Below, one piece after another: positions 55,176-62,519 of a stretch of DNA of 64,000 nt. Below the pieces are notes generated by a model. That model worked only from the letters and a program-made list of their open reading frames with translations, was not told the DNA's origin and did not search any database. The translations under genes and the position numbers were made by a program. Source of the stretch: Polynucleobacter sp. MWH-UH35A (GTDB taxonomy: Bacteria; Pseudomonadota; Gammaproteobacteria; Burkholderiales; Burkholderiaceae); NCBI RefSeq assembly GCF_018687075.1, contig NZ_CP061285.1:1674001-1738000 (forward strand), in the 5' to 3' direction. Within the stretch, counting starts at the first letter, position 1. Every line of letters begins with the position of its first letter.

Positions 55176-55252
55176 TGGTGGCGAATCAGGGATTTGAACC
55201 CCGGACCTGCGGATTATGATTCCGTCGCTCTAACCAGCTGAGCTAATTCGCC
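55176..55252 (-). tRNA. tRNA-Met (anticodon CAT)
   Basis: A 77-nt cloverleaf on the reverse strand: acceptor GGCGAAT / ATTCGCC, D-arm GCTC-AGCTGGTTA-GAGC, anticodon loop ATCATAA with CAT, T-loop TTCAAAT between CGGGG and CCCTG, and an encoded ACCA end at 55176. CAT also occurs in tRNA-Ile with lysidine; the overall sequence matches elongator tRNA-Met of Burkholderiales better. The tRNA is complete, and the mobile island lies on its 5' side. A TACAAT -10-like box about 16 bp upstream looks like its own promoter. Confidence 0.92.
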
Positions 55253-55418
55253 GAAGGTGTGATTGTAGCAAATCCGCCCCACATTCTGCTTGACGCTGGG
55301 GCAAATGCTATTTCCTATGTGTTTTAACTGTAGCTAACTCTGCCTAATCGTGCAACCGTGTAGTTCTACGGTGCTTAATCCTGTTTAAGGGTGTTTAACC
55401 CTACTTCGCTTTTCCTGC

Positions 55419-55586
55419 TTACGCAGAAACTGCTTTTTGTAAATTTTGCTGTGCTTTGGTAATTTTTTGACGCTTACGTTCGCTGTCTAACGCTTTACTG
55501 ACATTATCTTTCTGTCGCTTTAATGCATCCAAGCGTGCCTGTTGCGGAGTAAGCGGCTTAATTGGTTGAATTTCGTTAATCCTCAT
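55419..55586 (-). CDS. Small basic helical protein of mobile elements
   Basis: A 55-residue reverse-strand gene starting MRINEIQPIKPLTPQQARLDAL and continuing with a lysine/arginine/glutamine-rich coiled-coil-like tail. The opening resembles short proteins of phages and integrated elements that begin MR(I/V)xE(I/V)xPxKPLTPQQAR. The longer frame to 55718 has an unrelated N-terminal extension over the divergent membrane gene, so the internal ATG at 55586 is preferred. It is the first island gene after the tRNA; function unknown. Confidence 0.7.
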   Translation of the reverse strand: MRINEIQPIKPLTPQQARLDALKRQKDNVSKALDSERKRQKITKAQQNLQKAVSA

Positions 55587-55620
55587 ATAGTATTTAGCGA
55601 AAGACACTTTGAAAGAATTT

Positions 55621-56373: not shown

Positions 56374-57399
56374 TTAGATAAGCACCTTCAAAATTACATC
56401 CCGCTTTTGCTCAAGCGTATAACCCACAGTCCCGTAAGTATTAAATTCACTTCCCCCACTGCTGTGCCCAGTAATACTCTCAGCGAGGCGTGTGGGTATG
56501 TCATTCCTTGCCTTCATCCTATCAATGATTGCGTGTCTAAACATATGACTTTTAAAGTCAAACTCCTTTAGTGTTTTCTTAATGATTTGCGAACAACTAC
56601 TGTTGCCGTTATCCCTTGCGTAGTGCGGTACAAACCATTCGCTATTTTTCTTCTTTGCAATCTTGTATAACTCCTTTGCGGCATCTAATGAAACTCCACA
56701 AAGTGGTACAGCACGAATGCTTGATTTTGTTTTTCTGTCACTCAACGCATTTCGCCTTATCCATAAGTGCGGAATATCGTGCTCTAAAACACAATCCTCC
56801 AATCTTGCAAATAGTGGTTCTGACAACCTAAAACCCGTATTAAGCTGAATGAGTGCTACTAACTTATGTGGTGTTGAGTTTCTTAATAAGCATTCTTTGA
56901 CTTGATGAATGAGTTGCGTCGTAATAATTGGCATTGGACGCTTGTTATCACCTTCCCCCCTAATCTTTAATGCTCTAAATGGACTTAGCCTATCTATGTC
57001 CAAATGCTTAAATGCCATATTCAGCATTGCGTTGAGTGTGTTGTTATGTTTCCGAACGCTAGTTGGACTCAACCCTCTTGCAAGCTGATAATCCCTATAT
57101 TCAGTAATGTGCCAATGCTTTAGCTCATCTAAAGTTAAATCACCAAAAAAATCTTTAAAACTACGGAAGTGATAGTTAGCGTGTTTAACAAATGTTGGAC
57201 GGTGTGACGATGTAGCTTCATTCATATAGATTTGAAAAGCATCTGTAATCGTTGGCAATTTTCCATTCTTCTGCTTTGCCAAATGCTCGCTAATAACTTT
57301 GGCGAGGAACTCTTCTTCAAAGTTCATACCATTGACATTAATTAAGCGTTCAATTTTGTCAAAGACTATTGGATGGGGTTTTATTACGATAGCTCGCAT
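56374..57399 (-). CDS. Tyrosine-type site-specific integrase
   Basis: A 341-residue recombinase with a complete catalytic set: R191 in LNTGFRLSEPL, a lysine-containing turn DRKTKSSIRAVPL, H285-x-x-R288 in HMFRHAIIDRM, H312 in ITGHSSGG and Y322 in NTYGTVGY. The N-terminal half contains the core-binding domain (TITDAFQIYMNEA, then the four-helix ARGLSPTSVRKHNNTLNAMLNMAF). AAGGAAAA precedes the start. Lying near the tRNA-Met at the left end of the island, it is the best candidate for the integration enzyme. Palindrome copies 1 and 2 flank it on both sides. Confidence 0.93.
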   Translation of the reverse strand: MRAIVIKPHPIVFDKIERLINVNGMNFEEEFLAKVISEHLAKQKNGKLPTITDAFQIYMNEATSSHRPTFVKHANYHFRSFKDFFGDLTLDELKHWHITEYRDYQLARGLSPTSVRKHNNTLNAMLNMAFKHLDIDRLSPFRALKIRGEGDNKRPMPIITTQLIHQVKECLLRNSTPHKLVALIQLNTGFRLSEPLFARLEDCVLEHDIPHLWIRRNALSDRKTKSSIRAVPLCGVSLDAAKELYKIAKKKNSEWFVPHYARDNGNSSCSQIIKKTLKEFDFKSHMFRHAIIDRMKARNDIPTRLAESITGHSSGGSEFNTYGTVGYTLEQKRDVILKVLI

Positions 57400-57469: not shown

Positions 57470-57910
57470 CTACTTACGAAAACCCGCCTTTAGTGCTCCA
57501 CTAGCTAATTCAATCTGACTGTCTAATTCACCAGCCTCTACTGCTTGTTTAATTGCGGAGAGTGCTTTTACTAGCTCATCAGCACTTGAAACTTCTACGC
57601 TATGTTTGCCTTTAGCCAGCTCTATAACTTTTGTTCCGTACTTAACGGACACACAAACCTTACCCGCTTCATTCTTAAACCACCACTCTCTCAATCTTTT
57701 ATTCACTTCTACGCTTTTACGTAATCCAGTTTCTGCATCTTTAACTGTGCGAAACTTTTTCACCGTAAAGCTAGTGCCATCTATATGAGATTTCGCTAGC
57801 TGTATCTGCTCCCACAATTTATTACTCAGCTTATTACGACGAAACACTATTTGCGGAATATGTGTTGGTTTTTTTGCTGTTGATAATTTCAATCCATCTA
57901 ATGTGCTCAT
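57470..57910 (-). CDS. DUF6641-like protein
   Basis: A 146-residue protein starting MSTLDGLKLSTAKKPTHIPQ, then RRNKLSNKLWEQIQLAKSH and RLREWWFKNEAGKVCVSVKYGTKVIELAKGK. I recognise this as the pattern of DUF6641 proteins, found in Burkholderiales phage-like or integrative elements (family number from memory). No catalytic motif is visible. A good TAGGAG site precedes the ATG. It reads into the integrase gene and may be co-transcribed with it. Confidence 0.7.
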   Translation of the reverse strand: MSTLDGLKLSTAKKPTHIPQIVFRRNKLSNKLWEQIQLAKSHIDGTSFTVKKFRTVKDAETGLRKSVEVNKRLREWWFKNEAGKVCVSVKYGTKVIELAKGKHSVEVSSADELVKALSAIKQAVEAGELDSQIELASGALKAGFRK

Positions 57911-57955
57911 TTTTTTCTCCTATAAGTTAATGGGCACACTTAATTTATTACCAGA

Positions 57956-57978
57956 ATTTCGGTTTGGACAACCGAAAT
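57956..57978. promoter_or_regulatory. Inverted repeat upstream of the DUF6641-like gene
   Basis: ATTTCGGTT / AACCGAAAT, 9-base perfect arms around a 5-base loop, 45 bp before the DUF6641-like start. No T-run follows on either strand, so an operator is more likely than a terminator. Confidence 0.5.
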
Positions 57979-58074
57979 CTGCCTAAAGAAACCAAATCAA
58001 TTGTGTAAAAAATAATTGGTTTTATTTGGTATTGCATAAATATCTATACAAATGAGACATAAAAGTTGGCACGC

Positions 58075-58570
58075 TGAATGTAATAGTGCTGTGTAATCCG
58101 TTCTGATGTGTGACGGTAAGCAAACGAGTTGCTCATTACTCGCTGTATCGCACTACCTAGCTATATGCTAGATGCCTTAAATGCCACACCAATGTGTAGA
58201 AGCGTTTGCGATGCTGTAATGGTTAGAGCGTAGTGATACGCAAATAAAGTGAGTGGGATGCCACAATTAAACCCACAAACACTCTACAAAGCTACTGGTA
58301 TAGGCTGTGGAGTTGTTGCGTAAGACGAGCACATAAAAGGTGATAGCAAAACCTACCTTCCTTGTTAAATCAAGTTGTGTGTATGCCAGTTATGTAAAAC
58401 CTCAGCAAAAGGTTGTTTATCGCTACGCTCTTAAATGAGCGTGGCTTATGGCTCCTAGCAAAAGGGATTAAAGACAAAATCAATCAAAAAGATATAAGAG
58501 AAAGTGTGACGAACAAAAGCGATAGCTTTTGTGAAGGCACAGGCAGACTGCGAAGTAGTTTGCCTTTAAA
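58075..58570 (+). ncRNA. Candidate large structured RNA of the island
   Basis: The 732-bp interval 57911-58642 has no convincing protein gene but contains a chain of hairpins. Examples: CGAGT/ACTCG (58125-58142), CTAGC/GCTAG (58157-58171), TTTGCG+ATGCT with AGCGT+CGCAAA (58205-58244), CTCTAC+AGC with GCT+GTGGAG (58282-58312), AACCT/AGGTT (58398-58414), GCTACGCTC/GAGCGTGGC (58422-58445), ACAAAAGC/GCTTTTGT (58513-58532) and an 11-bp stem with GAA loop (58541-58565). Four of these stems use G-U pairs that exist only if the plus strand is transcribed. No family could be named. Limits are approximate. It could also contain the leader of the nuclease gene. Confidence 0.5.
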
Positions 58571-58642
58571 TCAAGTACTACCTATGCGATATATGTTTTT
58601 ATTGATAACATTCTTATAGTTTTAATACCAAAGAATGCGTAT

Positions 58643-59662
58643 ATGAATGAAACTAATAGAGTTATAGATAGCCTTCAAAAGGTTCTCTGTACTGCTACAA
58701 GCACAGTATCAGACTCTCGTGTTGAAAATAATGACTACTTTAAACGTCGTGTTTTAGGGTTTAAGGCAGAGATAGAGTTTGAGAAAGCAGTTAAAGACTT
58801 CTCAAGTGAACTCCATTTTGTAGAAGGCGGACAGTTTATTTCTAAAAAGATAAGCGGTGCGGCAGATGACAAAAACACATTTTTCTATACAACAATTGAT
58901 TACGAAGCACCAACTGCTTATACAAGTGTATATAAACGCATATCTCAATGGGATGAAGTTGATGAGATGCTTTATATCCAAGTATTAGAAAATGATTGGA
59001 CAACAGAACCTTTTAACATTACTCAACACGATGGTGTTAAAGCAACAACAACCATTCTGAAACCAAAGTTTATTTTTTATCAATTTGATAAGACAACATC
59101 TACTTTTACAAATCATCTAATACAAGATTTTTCCGTAATCCTTCAGCACTTCAATGAACCCGCAAGAAAACCGAGTTTATTTAAGATTAGAGGAGATGAA
59201 CAGTTTAGGTATTTCGAACAATACGATATTCGCACGCTTAAGAAAATCTACGCTACTCGCTATTTTTTAGACAACATAATGAGACAAGCACAAGGCAGGC
59301 AGTTCATTGACTTGGATGGTTTCATACTCAAAAACGACAAAGTGGTATTAGTTGAGATTAAAGAAAAGTCTCCGATTGAGGATGGTGAGTCAATGACAAA
59401 ATGGCAGTATGGATGGGACTCACGCAGACTTCTTTGGTATCTATACTTACTTAATAAACTTGATTTGGCAGTTCTATATAACGTACGACGAGTAAATAAT
59501 AGAACGGATAGGTTGTTTGTCCAGTGGGACTCTCTGTTTATTGATGACTTCTTAAAAGGAGTTAGTTGGAGCAATAGCAGAGGCGGTGGAGGTGGAGAAG
59601 ATACGCTTCTCGCACCATATCTTTACTTCAAACGCTTGAATGAAATATTAGAAACGCTTTAA
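58643..59662 (+). CDS. Probable type II restriction endonuclease (PD-(D/E)XK)
   Basis: A 339-residue protein with a nuclease core in its second half: D223/D225 in FIDLDGFILKND, then E238-x-K240 in VVLVEIKEKSP, followed by GWDSRRLLWYLYLLNK. The N-terminal half has no domain I recognise. It is convergent with, and overlaps by 4 bp, the adjacent cytosine methyltransferase gene, the usual pairing of a restriction-modification system. I cannot name its family or recognition sequence. The start at 58643 has only a weak ribosome site, and the preceding 500 bp are structured. Confidence 0.75.
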   Translation: MNETNRVIDSLQKVLCTATSTVSDSRVENNDYFKRRVLGFKAEIEFEKAVKDFSSELHFVEGGQFISKKISGAADDKNTFFYTTIDYEAPTAYTSVYKRISQWDEVDEMLYIQVLENDWTTEPFNITQHDGVKATTTILKPKFIFYQFDKTTSTFTNHLIQDFSVILQHFNEPARKPSLFKIRGDEQFRYFEQYDIRTLKKIYATRYFLDNIMRQAQGRQFIDLDGFILKNDKVVLVEIKEKSPIEDGESMTKWQYGWDSRRLLWYLYLLNKLDLAVLYNVRRVNNRTDRLFVQWDSLFIDDFLKGVSWSNSRGGGGGEDTLLAPYLYFKRLNEILETL

Positions 59663-60741
59663 GTCTTCAACGCTTTTAAAGCGGCGGAGACTTTTTCTTT
59701 TTTAATCTTTTCTACGTTTATCTTTTTATGCTCAACCTTTTTGAGGTTGATTTTCTTCATTGTCTTAAGAACTTCCTTTGCTAAAGCATTTACAACAGGA
59801 ACAGCAACGCTGTTTCCAAACTGCTTATATGTTTGTGTATCACTTGCAGGAAGCACAAAGTTGTCGGGAAATCCTTGTAGTCTTGCCGCTTCGCGTGGAG
59901 TGAGTTTGCGAGGATTCTTTCCTTTTTGCTCTATTAGAATCTCTGAACCATCTTTGTAATATCTTGCTGAAATAGTGCTTGTATATTTTGATTTCTCATT
60001 AAACAATGAGTATCCAAAACCATTTCCTTTTTCTATGTGTTCTGCTTTTCTTCTTTGATGTCCCGCCCACAATGTATCTGAGATTGTGTATTTCGCATCT
60101 ACTTTTTTCTCAAGTATGTCGCCGACTTTCACTTCTGTTTTTGGAGGTATTGGAAATGTGAAATTCACATTTCCCAAAAATCCAATGATGTAGATACGTT
60201 CTCTATTCTGAGGAACTCCGAAGTCTTTAGCGTTTAGCACTTCAGCAAATACGCTATACCCCATACCTTCCAACACTTCCTTAACCACTTGAAATGTATT
60301 TCCACCGTCGTGTGTTCTAAACCTCTTAACATTCTCTAAAAAGACAACGCGGGGACGATGGTGGTTTACGATTCTTGCTACATCAAAGAATAATGTTCCC
60401 CTAGTGTCAGCCAATCCCTTTTTAAGTCCCGCTTGTGAAAAAGGCTGGCAAGGAAAACCTGCCAATAGGATGTCAAACGGAGGGATTGTTTTCTCATCTA
60501 CTGCAGTAATATCCCCAAAAGGTTTATCCCCAAAATTTGCCTCATAGGTTTTCTGTGCGGCTTCATCCCATTCTGAAGTGAATACCGTTTCACAACCCTC
60601 TAGCTCAAAGCCCATACGAATACCACCTATACCCGCAAATAAATCAATCATTCGCGGGCTGCTCTTACTATATTTCTTTACTTTCACATTCCCAAAAAAA
60701 TCACGCTGTAATTCTTTTGGTGCTTTTGCAACTTTTTTCAT
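59659..60741 (-). CDS. DNA (cytosine-5) methyltransferase
   Basis: A 360-residue m5C methyltransferase with all key motifs in order: I (IDLFAGIGGIRMGFE), IV with catalytic C98 in AGFPCQPFSQAGL, VI (VFLENVKRF), VIII (QNRERIYIIGF), a target-recognition region containing GNGFGYSLFNE and SARYYKDGSEIL, IX (KLTPREAARLQGFPDNF) and X (YKQFGNSVAVPVV). A lysine-rich tail follows. It should protect DNA from the neighbouring nuclease. Specificity cannot be read from sequence alone. It starts by a region with paired small hairpins and inverted repeats that may regulate it. Confidence 0.92.
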   Translation of the reverse strand: MKKVAKAPKELQRDFFGNVKVKKYSKSSPRMIDLFAGIGGIRMGFELEGCETVFTSEWDEAAQKTYEANFGDKPFGDITAVDEKTIPPFDILLAGFPCQPFSQAGLKKGLADTRGTLFFDVARIVNHHRPRVVFLENVKRFRTHDGGNTFQVVKEVLEGMGYSVFAEVLNAKDFGVPQNRERIYIIGFLGNVNFTFPIPPKTEVKVGDILEKKVDAKYTISDTLWAGHQRRKAEHIEKGNGFGYSLFNEKSKYTSTISARYYKDGSEILIEQKGKNPRKLTPREAARLQGFPDNFVLPASDTQTYKQFGNSVAVPVVNALAKEVLKTMKKINLKKVEHKKINVEKIKKEKVSAALKALKT

Positions 60742-61132
60742 ATTTCAGAACTTAACTCAATATATTTTGTGAAGCTATTTTACTTTCAACTTCAAAATCA
60801 AGTTGGGTGTTTTGGAGCTTCAAAACCAAGCTGTAAGCACAATAAACAAAACAGCGAATAGCAGTACAGCAGAGAAGTACTTAAACAGCGTATAGACGCT
60901 ATACGCGAGTCTTCCCAATTCTGTGGGAAATAGACGACAAATTCCATAAATAAAACAATGTAATCAAATATACAAAAGATTACATTTCACCCGAAAAAAT
61001 ACACATCTCATTGATTTATGGAAGGATTTTTATTTGATGCATAACTCGCACTATGCGGTAGGAAAAAATAAACAAAGAAAACATACTTTAGACATAGCAA
61101 AACTTTGGTTAGGTACGAAAAAGGAGAAAACT
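60742..61132. promoter_or_regulatory. 391-bp regulatory gap between methyltransferase and compact recombinase
   Basis: Divergent promoter region without a gene. It holds a pair of similar hairpins, AACTT-CAAAATC-AAGTT (60788-60804) and AGCTT-CAAAACC-AAGCT (60816-60832), whose arms changed together; a perfect GCGTATAG/CTATACGC repeat (60888-60906); TTCCCA/TGGGAA (60912-60929); and AATGTAATC/GATTACATT (60957-60986). These are candidate operators for the methyltransferase and the recombinase. No C-protein gene is present. Confidence 0.5.
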
Positions 61133-61717
61133 ATGTCTAAGCAAGCAAAAACACTCAATCAAGCTGAATTACGCAGAGTACTTGATTACATTGCAACCCG
61201 CAAACACGCACTAAGAAATAGAGCGATGCTTTTGATGACTCATTTAGCGGGACTAAGGTGCGGAGAAGTATCTTCGCTTCGCTATAAGGATGTAGTCGAT
61301 GCTGAAGGCAAAGTAAGAAATGAAATACGATTAAGTGGAGAACAAACAAAGGGTGGTACGGCAAGAACGGTTTTTGTTAGTGAGCGACTACGAAAAGAAT
61401 TAGAACAGTACGTTATGTTCTTTCGACTATGCAAACTAGATGATTCAAATGTAAAGTTTTTTTATAGTCAAAAACGGGATAGCGACGGCTTCACTCCGAA
61501 CACCTGTGCCCAGTACTTCCACTATCTATACAAAAAAGCCGGCATTGATGGTGCAAGTAGCCACAGCGGAAGACGCTCATTTGCAACCGCAATTGCTTCG
61601 AAGGGTGTGGGTATAAAAGTTTTACAAAAGCTATTGGGACATAAAAATATTCAAACTACTAGTGTTTATATCTACGCAAGTGACGATATGCTTCGCAAAG
61701 CTGTGGAGCTTGCATAA
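61133..61717 (+). CDS. Compact tyrosine recombinase (FimB/FimE-sized)
   Basis: A 194-residue protein that is almost only a catalytic domain: R42 in LAGLRCGEVSSLR, K73 in TKGGTARTVFV, H144-x-x-R147 in SSHSGRRSF, H170 in LLGHKNIQTTS and Y179. It lacks the N-terminal core-binding domain of classic integrases, as do the fimbrial switch recombinases FimB and FimE. The start at 61133 has an ideal AAGGAG site 6 bases upstream; the frame is open for 33 further codons. It is divergent from the methyltransferase and convergent with the AAA+ gene. A palindrome copy lies 35 bp after its stop. Confidence 0.88.
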   Translation: MSKQAKTLNQAELRRVLDYIATRKHALRNRAMLLMTHLAGLRCGEVSSLRYKDVVDAEGKVRNEIRLSGEQTKGGTARTVFVSERLRKELEQYVMFFRLCKLDDSNVKFFYSQKRDSDGFTPNTCAQYFHYLYKKAGIDGASSHSGRRSFATAIASKGVGIKVLQKLLGHKNIQTTSVYIYASDDMLRKAVELA

Positions 61718-61769: not shown

Positions 61770-62468
61770 CTATGCCGCTACCTTCAGTTGCATCCCATTC
61801 TTTCTGTAATGTCGAACAACTAGCTGTCTTGCCGCAAGCATAATTTCACGTGCACTTCCATTGCAAAGCTCAATAATTCTTAAAGCATCTTCGTCTGTAA
61901 CGTGCATTACTCCGTAGTCACTCAGTACTTGCTTAAACTTATCTAACCAAGCTGTAGCGGGTGCCGCATTAAATTCAATGCGTATGCACCTATCTTGCAC
62001 TCCACGCTCTATTGCACTAAGTTTATTTGTTGTAAGTATGAACACATTTTGAAAGCTCGCAACATTCATTGCCGCTTTTAACGAATCCATTGCCTCTGTT
62101 CGCAAGTTATCCACTTCGTCCAATACATAGTAGTTATAGCGATTGCAGTAAGGCATCAGTACTGCTTTGTGCTTAATGCTATCAATAACTTTCGCTCCGT
62201 TATCACCACCTTGTGAAATATTCACATACGTAGCAAAGTTCGCTTGCTCATTACCAAACGAAGACTCGAATAAATCGGGCAATAGCTTTGCCAATGCCGA
62301 CTTCCCCGTACCATTTACCCCATAAAGCAATATGCCGTTCTTACCACTTGCAGGAAACCCTAGTGCTCCACTTACACAGTCTTCAATTACTTCCCTTGCA
62401 TCTTGCGAATGAAACACAATGTCGTCAATCGTACGTGGTGTATAGCGTTCATCAAAATCTTTAAACAT
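61770..62468 (-). CDS. AAA+ ATPase resembling clamp-loader (RFC small-subunit type)
   Basis: A 232-residue AAA+ protein beginning MFKDFDERYTPRTIDDIVFH, the opening of RFC/DnaX-like ATPases. Walker A is GVNGTGKS (residues 50-57), Walker B VLDEVD (115-120), sensor 1 TTN (146-148), an RFC-box-like QDRC with R160-C161, and sensor 2 in NGSAREIM (R207). The size suggests only the ATPase and lid regions. Such proteins can load clamps, motors or helicases onto DNA, so this may assist island replication. The start at 62468 has GGAGAG just before it; an upstream ATG at 62501 lacks that. It follows the unknown 262-residue gene, separated by a terminator. Confidence 0.85.
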   Translation of the reverse strand: MFKDFDERYTPRTIDDIVFHSQDAREVIEDCVSGALGFPASGKNGILLYGVNGTGKSALAKLLPDLFESSFGNEQANFATYVNISQGGDNGAKVIDSIKHKAVLMPYCNRYNYYVLDEVDNLRTEAMDSLKAAMNVASFQNVFILTTNKLSAIERGVQDRCIRIEFNAAPATAWLDKFKQVLSDYGVMHVTDEDALRIIELCNGSAREIMLAARQLVVRHYRKNGMQLKVAA

Positions 62469-62488
62469 TATTCTCTCCATTTTTAGAC

Positions 62489-62519
62489 AAAAAAAGGGCA
62501 CAGCAATTACGCTGTGCCC
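62489..62519 (-). terminator. Intrinsic terminator after the 262-residue gene
   Basis: GGGCACAGC / GCTGTGCCC, a 9-bp perfect stem with a 6-base loop and seven T on the reverse strand, between the two reverse-strand genes. It means the AAA+ gene needs its own promoter or read-through. Confidence 0.9.

Follow-up and report, generated by a model that had tools for sequence, protein, structure and literature searches.

The 64,000-nucleotide stretch of Polynucleobacter sp. MWH-UH35A DNA analysed here (hereafter the window) carries a large structured RNA whose relatives occur in other chromosomal islands and in phages. Comparison of homologous sequences confirms that about 58048-58570 encodes, on the plus strand, a structured noncoding RNA and no conserved protein frame, and indicates that this RNA is real, conserved, mobile and common to phages and islands. 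The initial annotation had already proposed a plus-strand structured RNA; beyond that proposal, the RNA is a widespread family, it is found in phages and it has a conserved upstream TAAATA. According to the best explanation, which we consider about evenly balanced between right and wrong, the RNA would belong to a new family of large noncoding RNAs of phages and satellites, expressed during infection and acting in trans.

The RNA locus and its host island

The conserved core of the RNA spans about 58060-58465. Its 5' end likely lies near 58048, upstream of the start at 58075 given by the initial annotation, whereas the 3' end given there, near 58570 and past the 3' hairpins, is probably correct. 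The absence of a protein gene, also claimed in that annotation, was borne out by an alignment of 30 copies of the RNA (alignment A1), across which no reading frame is conserved. Indeed, the longest start-to-stop frame of each copy amounts to 37-95 aa, these frames lie on both strands and at scattered positions, and 606 of the 653 gap runs are not divisible by three. The 68-aa ORF of the window (58413-58619) was rejected as a gene, being the same noise as these scattered frames.

The strand was settled as plus by the alignment of copies and not by single-sequence folding, which gives z-scores of -2.73 for the plus and -3.47 for the minus strand and therefore provides only moderate evidence of structure and leaves the strand undecided. 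The consensus energy of A1 is -159.9 on the plus versus -140.2 on the minus strand, the minimum free energy of the plus strand is below that of the minus strand in 28/30 copies, and paired cells include 463 GU/UG versus 54 AC/CA combinations, a count in which GU is favoured by the fitting of the structure on the plus strand. The argument from G-U pairs by which the plus strand had originally been chosen thus leads to the right strand once it is applied to the alignment; against shuffles, the minus strand of the single sequence folds equally well.

The RNA is carried by an island of about 11 kb, delimited by an exact 42-bp direct repeat that corresponds to the 5' half of a tRNA-Met gene (55176-55252, minus strand, detected by ARAGORN). 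The left repeat lies at 55214-55255 and the right one 10.96 kb further on, past the end of the window, at L105:4177-4218 (66177-66218 if the numbering is continued), as seen when the window is joined to L105. Another locus, L022, is organised in the same way: it too lies in tRNA-Met, and its 47-bp repeats are separated by 10.3 kb. A tyrosine integrase (56374-57399, minus strand; Pfam Phage_integrase, 46.4 bits; phrog_1) is followed by the gene of a DUF6641 protein (57470-57910, minus strand; PF20346, 49.8 bits; phrog_31551, 87.2 bits), which is divergent from the RNA and had been correctly recognised as DUF6641-like. The island also encodes a second, short tyrosine recombinase (61034-61717, plus strand; PF00589, 94.4 bits) and a clamp-loader-like AAA protein (61770-62501, minus strand; phrog_168, 79 bits; RFC small subunit, E 2.8e-11), along with further proteins of no named function.

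Downstream of the RNA, an ORF encoding a 339-aa protein (58643-59662, plus strand) starts 73 nt after 58570 and is cargo outside the RNA unit. The initial annotation had called it a nuclease; the ORF itself stands, and its product has no Pfam, PHROGs or PADLOC match at E 0.001. With the convergent gene of a C5 cytosine methyltransferase (59659-60741, minus strand; PF00145, 356.7 bits), it perhaps constitutes a restriction-modification cargo, in which the 339-aa protein would perhaps be a restriction enzyme of unlisted type. The position of this same-strand gene could suggest that the RNA is its leader (5' UTR), for example an RNA switch controlling 58643-59662. However, the genes that follow the RNA differ among islands and are often on the opposite strand, and the RNA is therefore very unlikely to be the leader of the next gene.

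Several observations concern DUF6641. It is carried by 97/186 Polynucleobacter genomes, often in multiple copies, and is a possible marker of this class of islands. At least 2888 relatives were found in the protein collection at E 0.001, and no clear fold match was obtained. By tblastn, the protein has no phage match and six weak plasmid matches, although its family belongs to a PHROG. No paper naming DUF6641 was found in the literature searched, a collection that leaves out most subscription papers and every bioRxiv-only one. Another recurrent island protein (L056:7625-7990, cluster 4) belongs to DUF6876 (PF21781).

Consensus fold and covariation

The base-pair register of A1 was provided by MAFFT without structural information. 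RNAalifold predicts 93 pairs on this alignment, 43 of which show changes on both sides, and a fold scored with RIBOSUM comprises 21 helices with 120 pairs in all. In the latter, 95.7% of cells are paired versus 31.1-40.3% after a shift of the partners by 1-3 columns, a comparison biased in favour of the consensus structure as this was derived from the same alignment. Two-sided change affects 45 of the 120 pairs versus 25.6 in shuffles, none of 500 shuffles reaching this number, and 267 cells versus 89.7. Because shuffles ignore relatedness, substitutions were also simulated along a FastTree tree. In this tree-aware test, which addresses the check for covariation proposed by the initial annotation, 11/120 pairs of A1, spread over seven regions, reach E<0.05; among non-structure pairs, only 24 reach that level where 46.7 would be expected. 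In an alignment of the 5' domain from 47 copies (A2), this holds for 6/27 pairs, with one non-structure pair versus 14.8 expected.

A test of all possible pairs, made without any structure, yielded four pairs at E<=0.05, three of which belong to consensus helices. The fourth, 58176-58221, crosses the helix 58142-58217 and would correspond to a short pseudoknot (58174-58176/58221-58223), which is left open because 58174-58176 pairs equally well with 58064-58066 (27/30). In the RIBOSUM-scored fold, two-sided change is absent from every pair of the closing helix 58063-58072/58448-58456 and from helices 11, 12 and 17.

The strongest helices lie in or next to the 5' domain (58060-58202, plus strand), the part common to the phage copies, which scores 143.1 bits here with model R1, built from 47 copies of the domain. 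The hairpin 58125-58129/58138-58142 shows compensatory changes with E down to 5.6e-5 in A2, and the hairpin 58157-58163/58165-58171 reaches E values down to 5.4e-5 and includes two pairs that were also recovered by the all-pairs test. In the third of these helices, 58179-58189/58194-58207, no null score of the all-pairs test is as high as that of the pair 58186-58197.

Further downstream, three of the four stems highlighted by the initial annotation belong to the 21-helix consensus. They correspond to the hairpin 58228-58241 (formerly 58205-58244), whose pair 58231-58238 has E=3e-4; to the helix 58278-58285/58310-58317 with its inner part 58290-58293/58303-58306 (formerly 58282-58312), in which all 8/8 outer pairs show two-sided change but fail the tree-aware test, the best value being E=0.095; and to the hairpin 58421-58430/58437-58446 (formerly 58422-58445), with two-sided change in 4/10 pairs and E=0.045 for the pair 58429-58438. 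The fourth, 58541-58565, is located outside the aligned core and was judged by eye in relatives; with 58505-58541, it forms a 3' hairpin module (58505-58566) seen by eye in the alignment of relatives. Two other plus-strand elements complete this picture: the nearly invariant helix 58253-58257/58272-58276 (GUGGG/CCCAC), paired in 100% of cells and showing two-sided change in one of its five pairs, and the hairpin 58361-58365/58370-58374, one pair of which has E=0.016 and is canonical in only 18/29 copies.

A symmetry of the DNA itself, such as a recombination site or an origin, could in principle mimic such an RNA, all the more as the locus belongs to a mobile element and as its minus strand folds equally well in the single sequence. 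This explanation is most improbable in view of the many G-U pairs that become A-C mismatches on the other strand, the lower consensus energy of the plus strand, the two-sided covariation and the presence of a conserved promoter-like element on a fixed side.

Comparison with known RNAs and distribution of homologues

At gathering scores, Rfam 15 detects only a tRNA in the window and nothing in 28 further loci (16 diverged and 12 more). GOLLD, ROOL, HEARO/omegaRNA, retron RNA, group I/II introns and tmRNA were therefore rejected as identities of the RNA; ARAGORN did not detect any tmRNA either. A permissive scan of 57900-58700 gave six sub-threshold hits, judged to be due to chance, and GOLLD, ROOL, HEARO, introns and tmRNA were all absent from them. 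The initial annotation had noticed that the neighbourhood is not that of a retron or an omegaRNA and had mentioned GOLLD and ROOL as a loose comparison only; both statements agree with these searches. The family thus appears unmatched in Rfam 15, and a GOLLD/ROOL-like function would be a matter of comparison, not of membership. In the literature searched, within the same scope as above, no paper was found on a noncoding RNA of a Polynucleobacter genomic island, and none describes the present RNA.

GOLLD and ROOL form RNA nanocages (homo-oligomeric cages), and to our knowledge large ornate phage RNAs such as these have no known function. The present RNA resembles both in being a large ornate RNA of mobile elements; according to the available part of the source, GOLLD and ROOL are RNAs of phages and prophages often found near tRNA islands, and the expression of GOLLD rises during lysis (PMC12286853). 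It differs from GOLLD, which exceeds 800 nt versus about 500 here and is described with a universally conserved 3' region whereas the shared part here is a conserved 5' domain, and from ROOL, which it does not match in Rfam and which is larger.

A DNA search of 101 relatives at E<=0.001 matched 25 genomes, all of the same genus, some matches being short or partial. A short search pattern built from an alignment of 15 copies retrieved 56 loci on genome contigs and 8 viral ones, 44/56 and 6/8 of which were confirmed by a profile, the other 12 and 2 being due to chance. Confirmed carriers belong to Polynucleobacter, Limnohabitans, Methylophilales and Rhodobacterales (Loktanella, Shimia, Jannaschia, Octadecabacter), and the RNA thus resides in islands of both beta- and alphaproteobacteria. 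Two loci assigned to Cryomorphaceae (L065) and Sphingomonadales (L087) score like Polynucleobacter copies and may come from misassigned bins. Model R1 detects the 5' domain in 31/186 Polynucleobacter genomes, in 5/399 genomes sampled from the order (three of which are Polynucleobacter), in 9/244 genomes of the order of the Loktanella genome and in 4/398 genomes from the phylum, these samples overlapping.

The RNA is also found in phage contigs of IMG/VR. A second viral pattern retrieved 17 stretches, 11 of which were new. Among 17 viral records with the RNA, some of which may be fragments, only two match both a late sigma factor family and T4 Gp23 (searched with phrog_234 and PF07068), and these two are T4-like. 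The remaining records are different phages or fragments. Among copies outside the model, R1 gives 31.5 bits for L112/L113 (E 8e-6), 26.8 bits for L117/L109 (1.5e-4) and 23.3 bits for L116/L118 (E 1.2e-3), scores that are partly circular since the initial ~28 nt of the domain had served to pick these loci. By blastn, which is blind to distant copies, neither the RNA of the window nor the L098 and L100 copies matched any phage or plasmid record.

The phage neighbourhoods of the RNA are diverse. L100 encodes a late sigma factor, which matches phrog_12791 at 276.3 bits, and genes resembling the gp47 and gp46 recombination genes adjoin its RNA, while phages of the L114 type carry the RNA beside genes of no named function. 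In L112 and L117, the ORFs downstream of the RNA region include a terminase-small-like gene and then a terminase-large gene. This last arrangement would fit a packaging or assembly RNA that fills or builds heads, loosely like the pRNA of phi29, and that islands would use to package their own DNA. Such a role is unlikely: the terminase-small-like genes score weakly (35.1 and 22.9 bits), the R1 scores of L112 and L117 are only 31.5 and 26.8 bits, and the L100 and L114-type copies adjoin recombination genes and unnamed genes, respectively. GIY-YIG-like homing endonuclease matches were also observed near the RNA in unrelated phage contexts (L112:3044-3574 and L100:1980-2462).

The upstream TAAATA element and the possible role of the RNA

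The RNA of the window is preceded by cATAAATA (58035-58042, plus strand), which resembles the -10 element of T4-type late promoters. T4 late transcription starts about six bases past this motif, and the predicted start of the RNA lies near 58048. Among 64 copies of the RNA, 54 have TAAATA at most 76 nt ahead of the conserved start and 59 have it at most 130 nt ahead, the chance of finding it in 130 nt being 0.108. By group, the 76-nt distance holds for 30/30 beta, 16/20 other island and 8/14 viral copies, some viral rows being near-duplicates. According to the available part of the source, late genes of T4 and KVP40 use TATAAATA and those of the cyanophage S-PM2 NATAAATA (PMC2984593). An element like TATAAATA thus lies just upstream of the RNA in 54/64 copies and is absent from both T4-like records (L163 and L164), where the 600 nt preceding the RNA contain no TAAATA; in these two records, the RNA may be read through from upstream genes. 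The likeness to T4-type late promoters concerns the motif itself, (N/T)ATAAATA without an evident second box, as described in the accessible text of PMC2984593; it does not extend to the T4-like copies of the RNA, where this motif is missing.

TAAATA also precedes protein genes. In 19/22 cluster-2 ORFs, it lies no more than 60 nt from the chosen start and a few bases ahead of the ATG, and it is present upstream of 10/17 cluster-4 ORFs; the proportion among other ORFs is 53/570. In the window, a small island ORF of 55 aa from an internal ATG (MRINEIQ...; 55419-55586, minus strand), which by eye resembles the cluster-2 ORF, has CTAAATA (55591-55597) ending 4 nt ahead of its ATG. In phage loci, an ATG-initiated ORF starts 4-8 nt past TAAATA in 23/149 cases versus 54/2123 for permuted hexamers, and the ORFs concerned include the terminase-small-like gene of L112 and the gp47-like gene of L100. 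As transcription would start about six bases after the motif, ORFs located a few bases past it would give leaderless mRNAs. Alpha and other islands show no enrichment of TAAATA close to an ATG (0/100 versus 12/1113 permuted), one gene family makes up much of the excess in beta islands, and ATAAATA is not enriched in the island of the window (3 seen versus 3.35 expected under a Markov model).

If TAAATA is the -10 element of a T4-type late promoter, the chromosomal copy would stay off until infection by a T4-like or similar phage brings in a late sigma factor. The motif is most simply explained by expression late in infection, the stage at which the RNA would then accumulate. Its conservation in unrelated neighbourhoods suggests that it would act in trans as a folded machine, in the manner of GOLLD and ROOL, for the island and for the phages bearing the RNA. 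A helper-type link between both kinds of carriers is suggested by the two RNA-bearing phage records encoding Gp23 and a T4-type late sigma factor and by the clamp-loader-like protein of the island. This explanation is nevertheless given no more than even odds, because both T4-like records lack TAAATA ahead of the RNA, which weighs against its promoter part. Other points against it are the small share of T4-like records among the viral carriers, the lack of TAAATA or ATAAATA enrichment in alpha and other islands and in the island of the window, the absence of blastn matches to phages and plasmids, and the fact that no capsid or packaging gene was recognised in the island.

The islands would then be phage satellites. 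The island of the window shares with phage satellites and phage-inducible chromosomal islands a size of about 11 kb, an integrase, att repeats in a tRNA gene, hence the structure of an integrated element, and a late-type promoter motif. It differs from them in that no capsid, terminase, packaging or helper-interference gene was recognised in it. None of 10 island proteins has a PHROG name related to capsid remodelling, packaging redirection or helper interference, and eight have no PHROG at all.

A precedent is provided by the phage ICP1 and its satellite PLE, which produce abundant noncoding transcripts (about 800 nt in ICP1, from the IIR in PLE), the PLE transcript displaying antisense homology with the leader sequences of ORFs in PLE (PMC7567579, available part). 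The parallel with the putative satellite RNA described here is that a lytic phage and its satellite both produce such transcripts; the accessible text of PMC7567579 does not describe them as mutually homologous, whereas the phage and island copies of the present RNA are homologous. This precedent, the location of the RNA in an island beside a methyltransferase cargo and the existence of a phage version that could be imitated would suit an island-borne regulator, antisense or decoy, hindering the infecting phage, that is, an anti-phage rather than a structural RNA. We regard such a regulator as rather unlikely, as an elaborate fold highly conserved over about 400 nt in islands and phages better fits a shared machine than an antisense RNA.

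A more specific version of the trans-acting RNA, tentative and on the doubtful side, is that a single RNA machine serves islands and lytic phages: the island copy would be silent, its helper-type late promoter would fire upon infection by a T4-like or similar phage, and its product would join or displace the phage version at a late stage, for instance assembly or packaging. If this is true, a homologous large RNA would serve both a phage and its satellite. More generally, a further family present in phages and in small islands of culturable bacteria, whose promoter hints at the time of its expression, would provide a tractable route to the role of such large RNAs in infection, and could point to a class of islands, in bacteria of fresh waters and the sea, responding to T4-like phages.

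Some related loci show other arrangements next to DUF6641, where the site seems to exchange cargo. In L012 (G023, about 1600-2130), an upstream region like that of the window and ATAAATA lead straight into a protein frame, and the RNA is absent. L016 (G046) carries a truncated copy (1505-1603) made up of the first ~100 nt of the RNA and the upstream motif. In L018 (1229-1600) and L019 (1045-1400), a different noncoding-looking stretch lies beside DUF6641 after a TAAATA-led short frame; it ends, after a different late-type transcript, in a hairpin module like the 3' module of the RNA and is perhaps a second RNA family of such islands. Likewise, a short frame comes after the motif in G002 and G039, and beyond it lies a different noncoding-looking stretch that carries the same 3' hairpin module.
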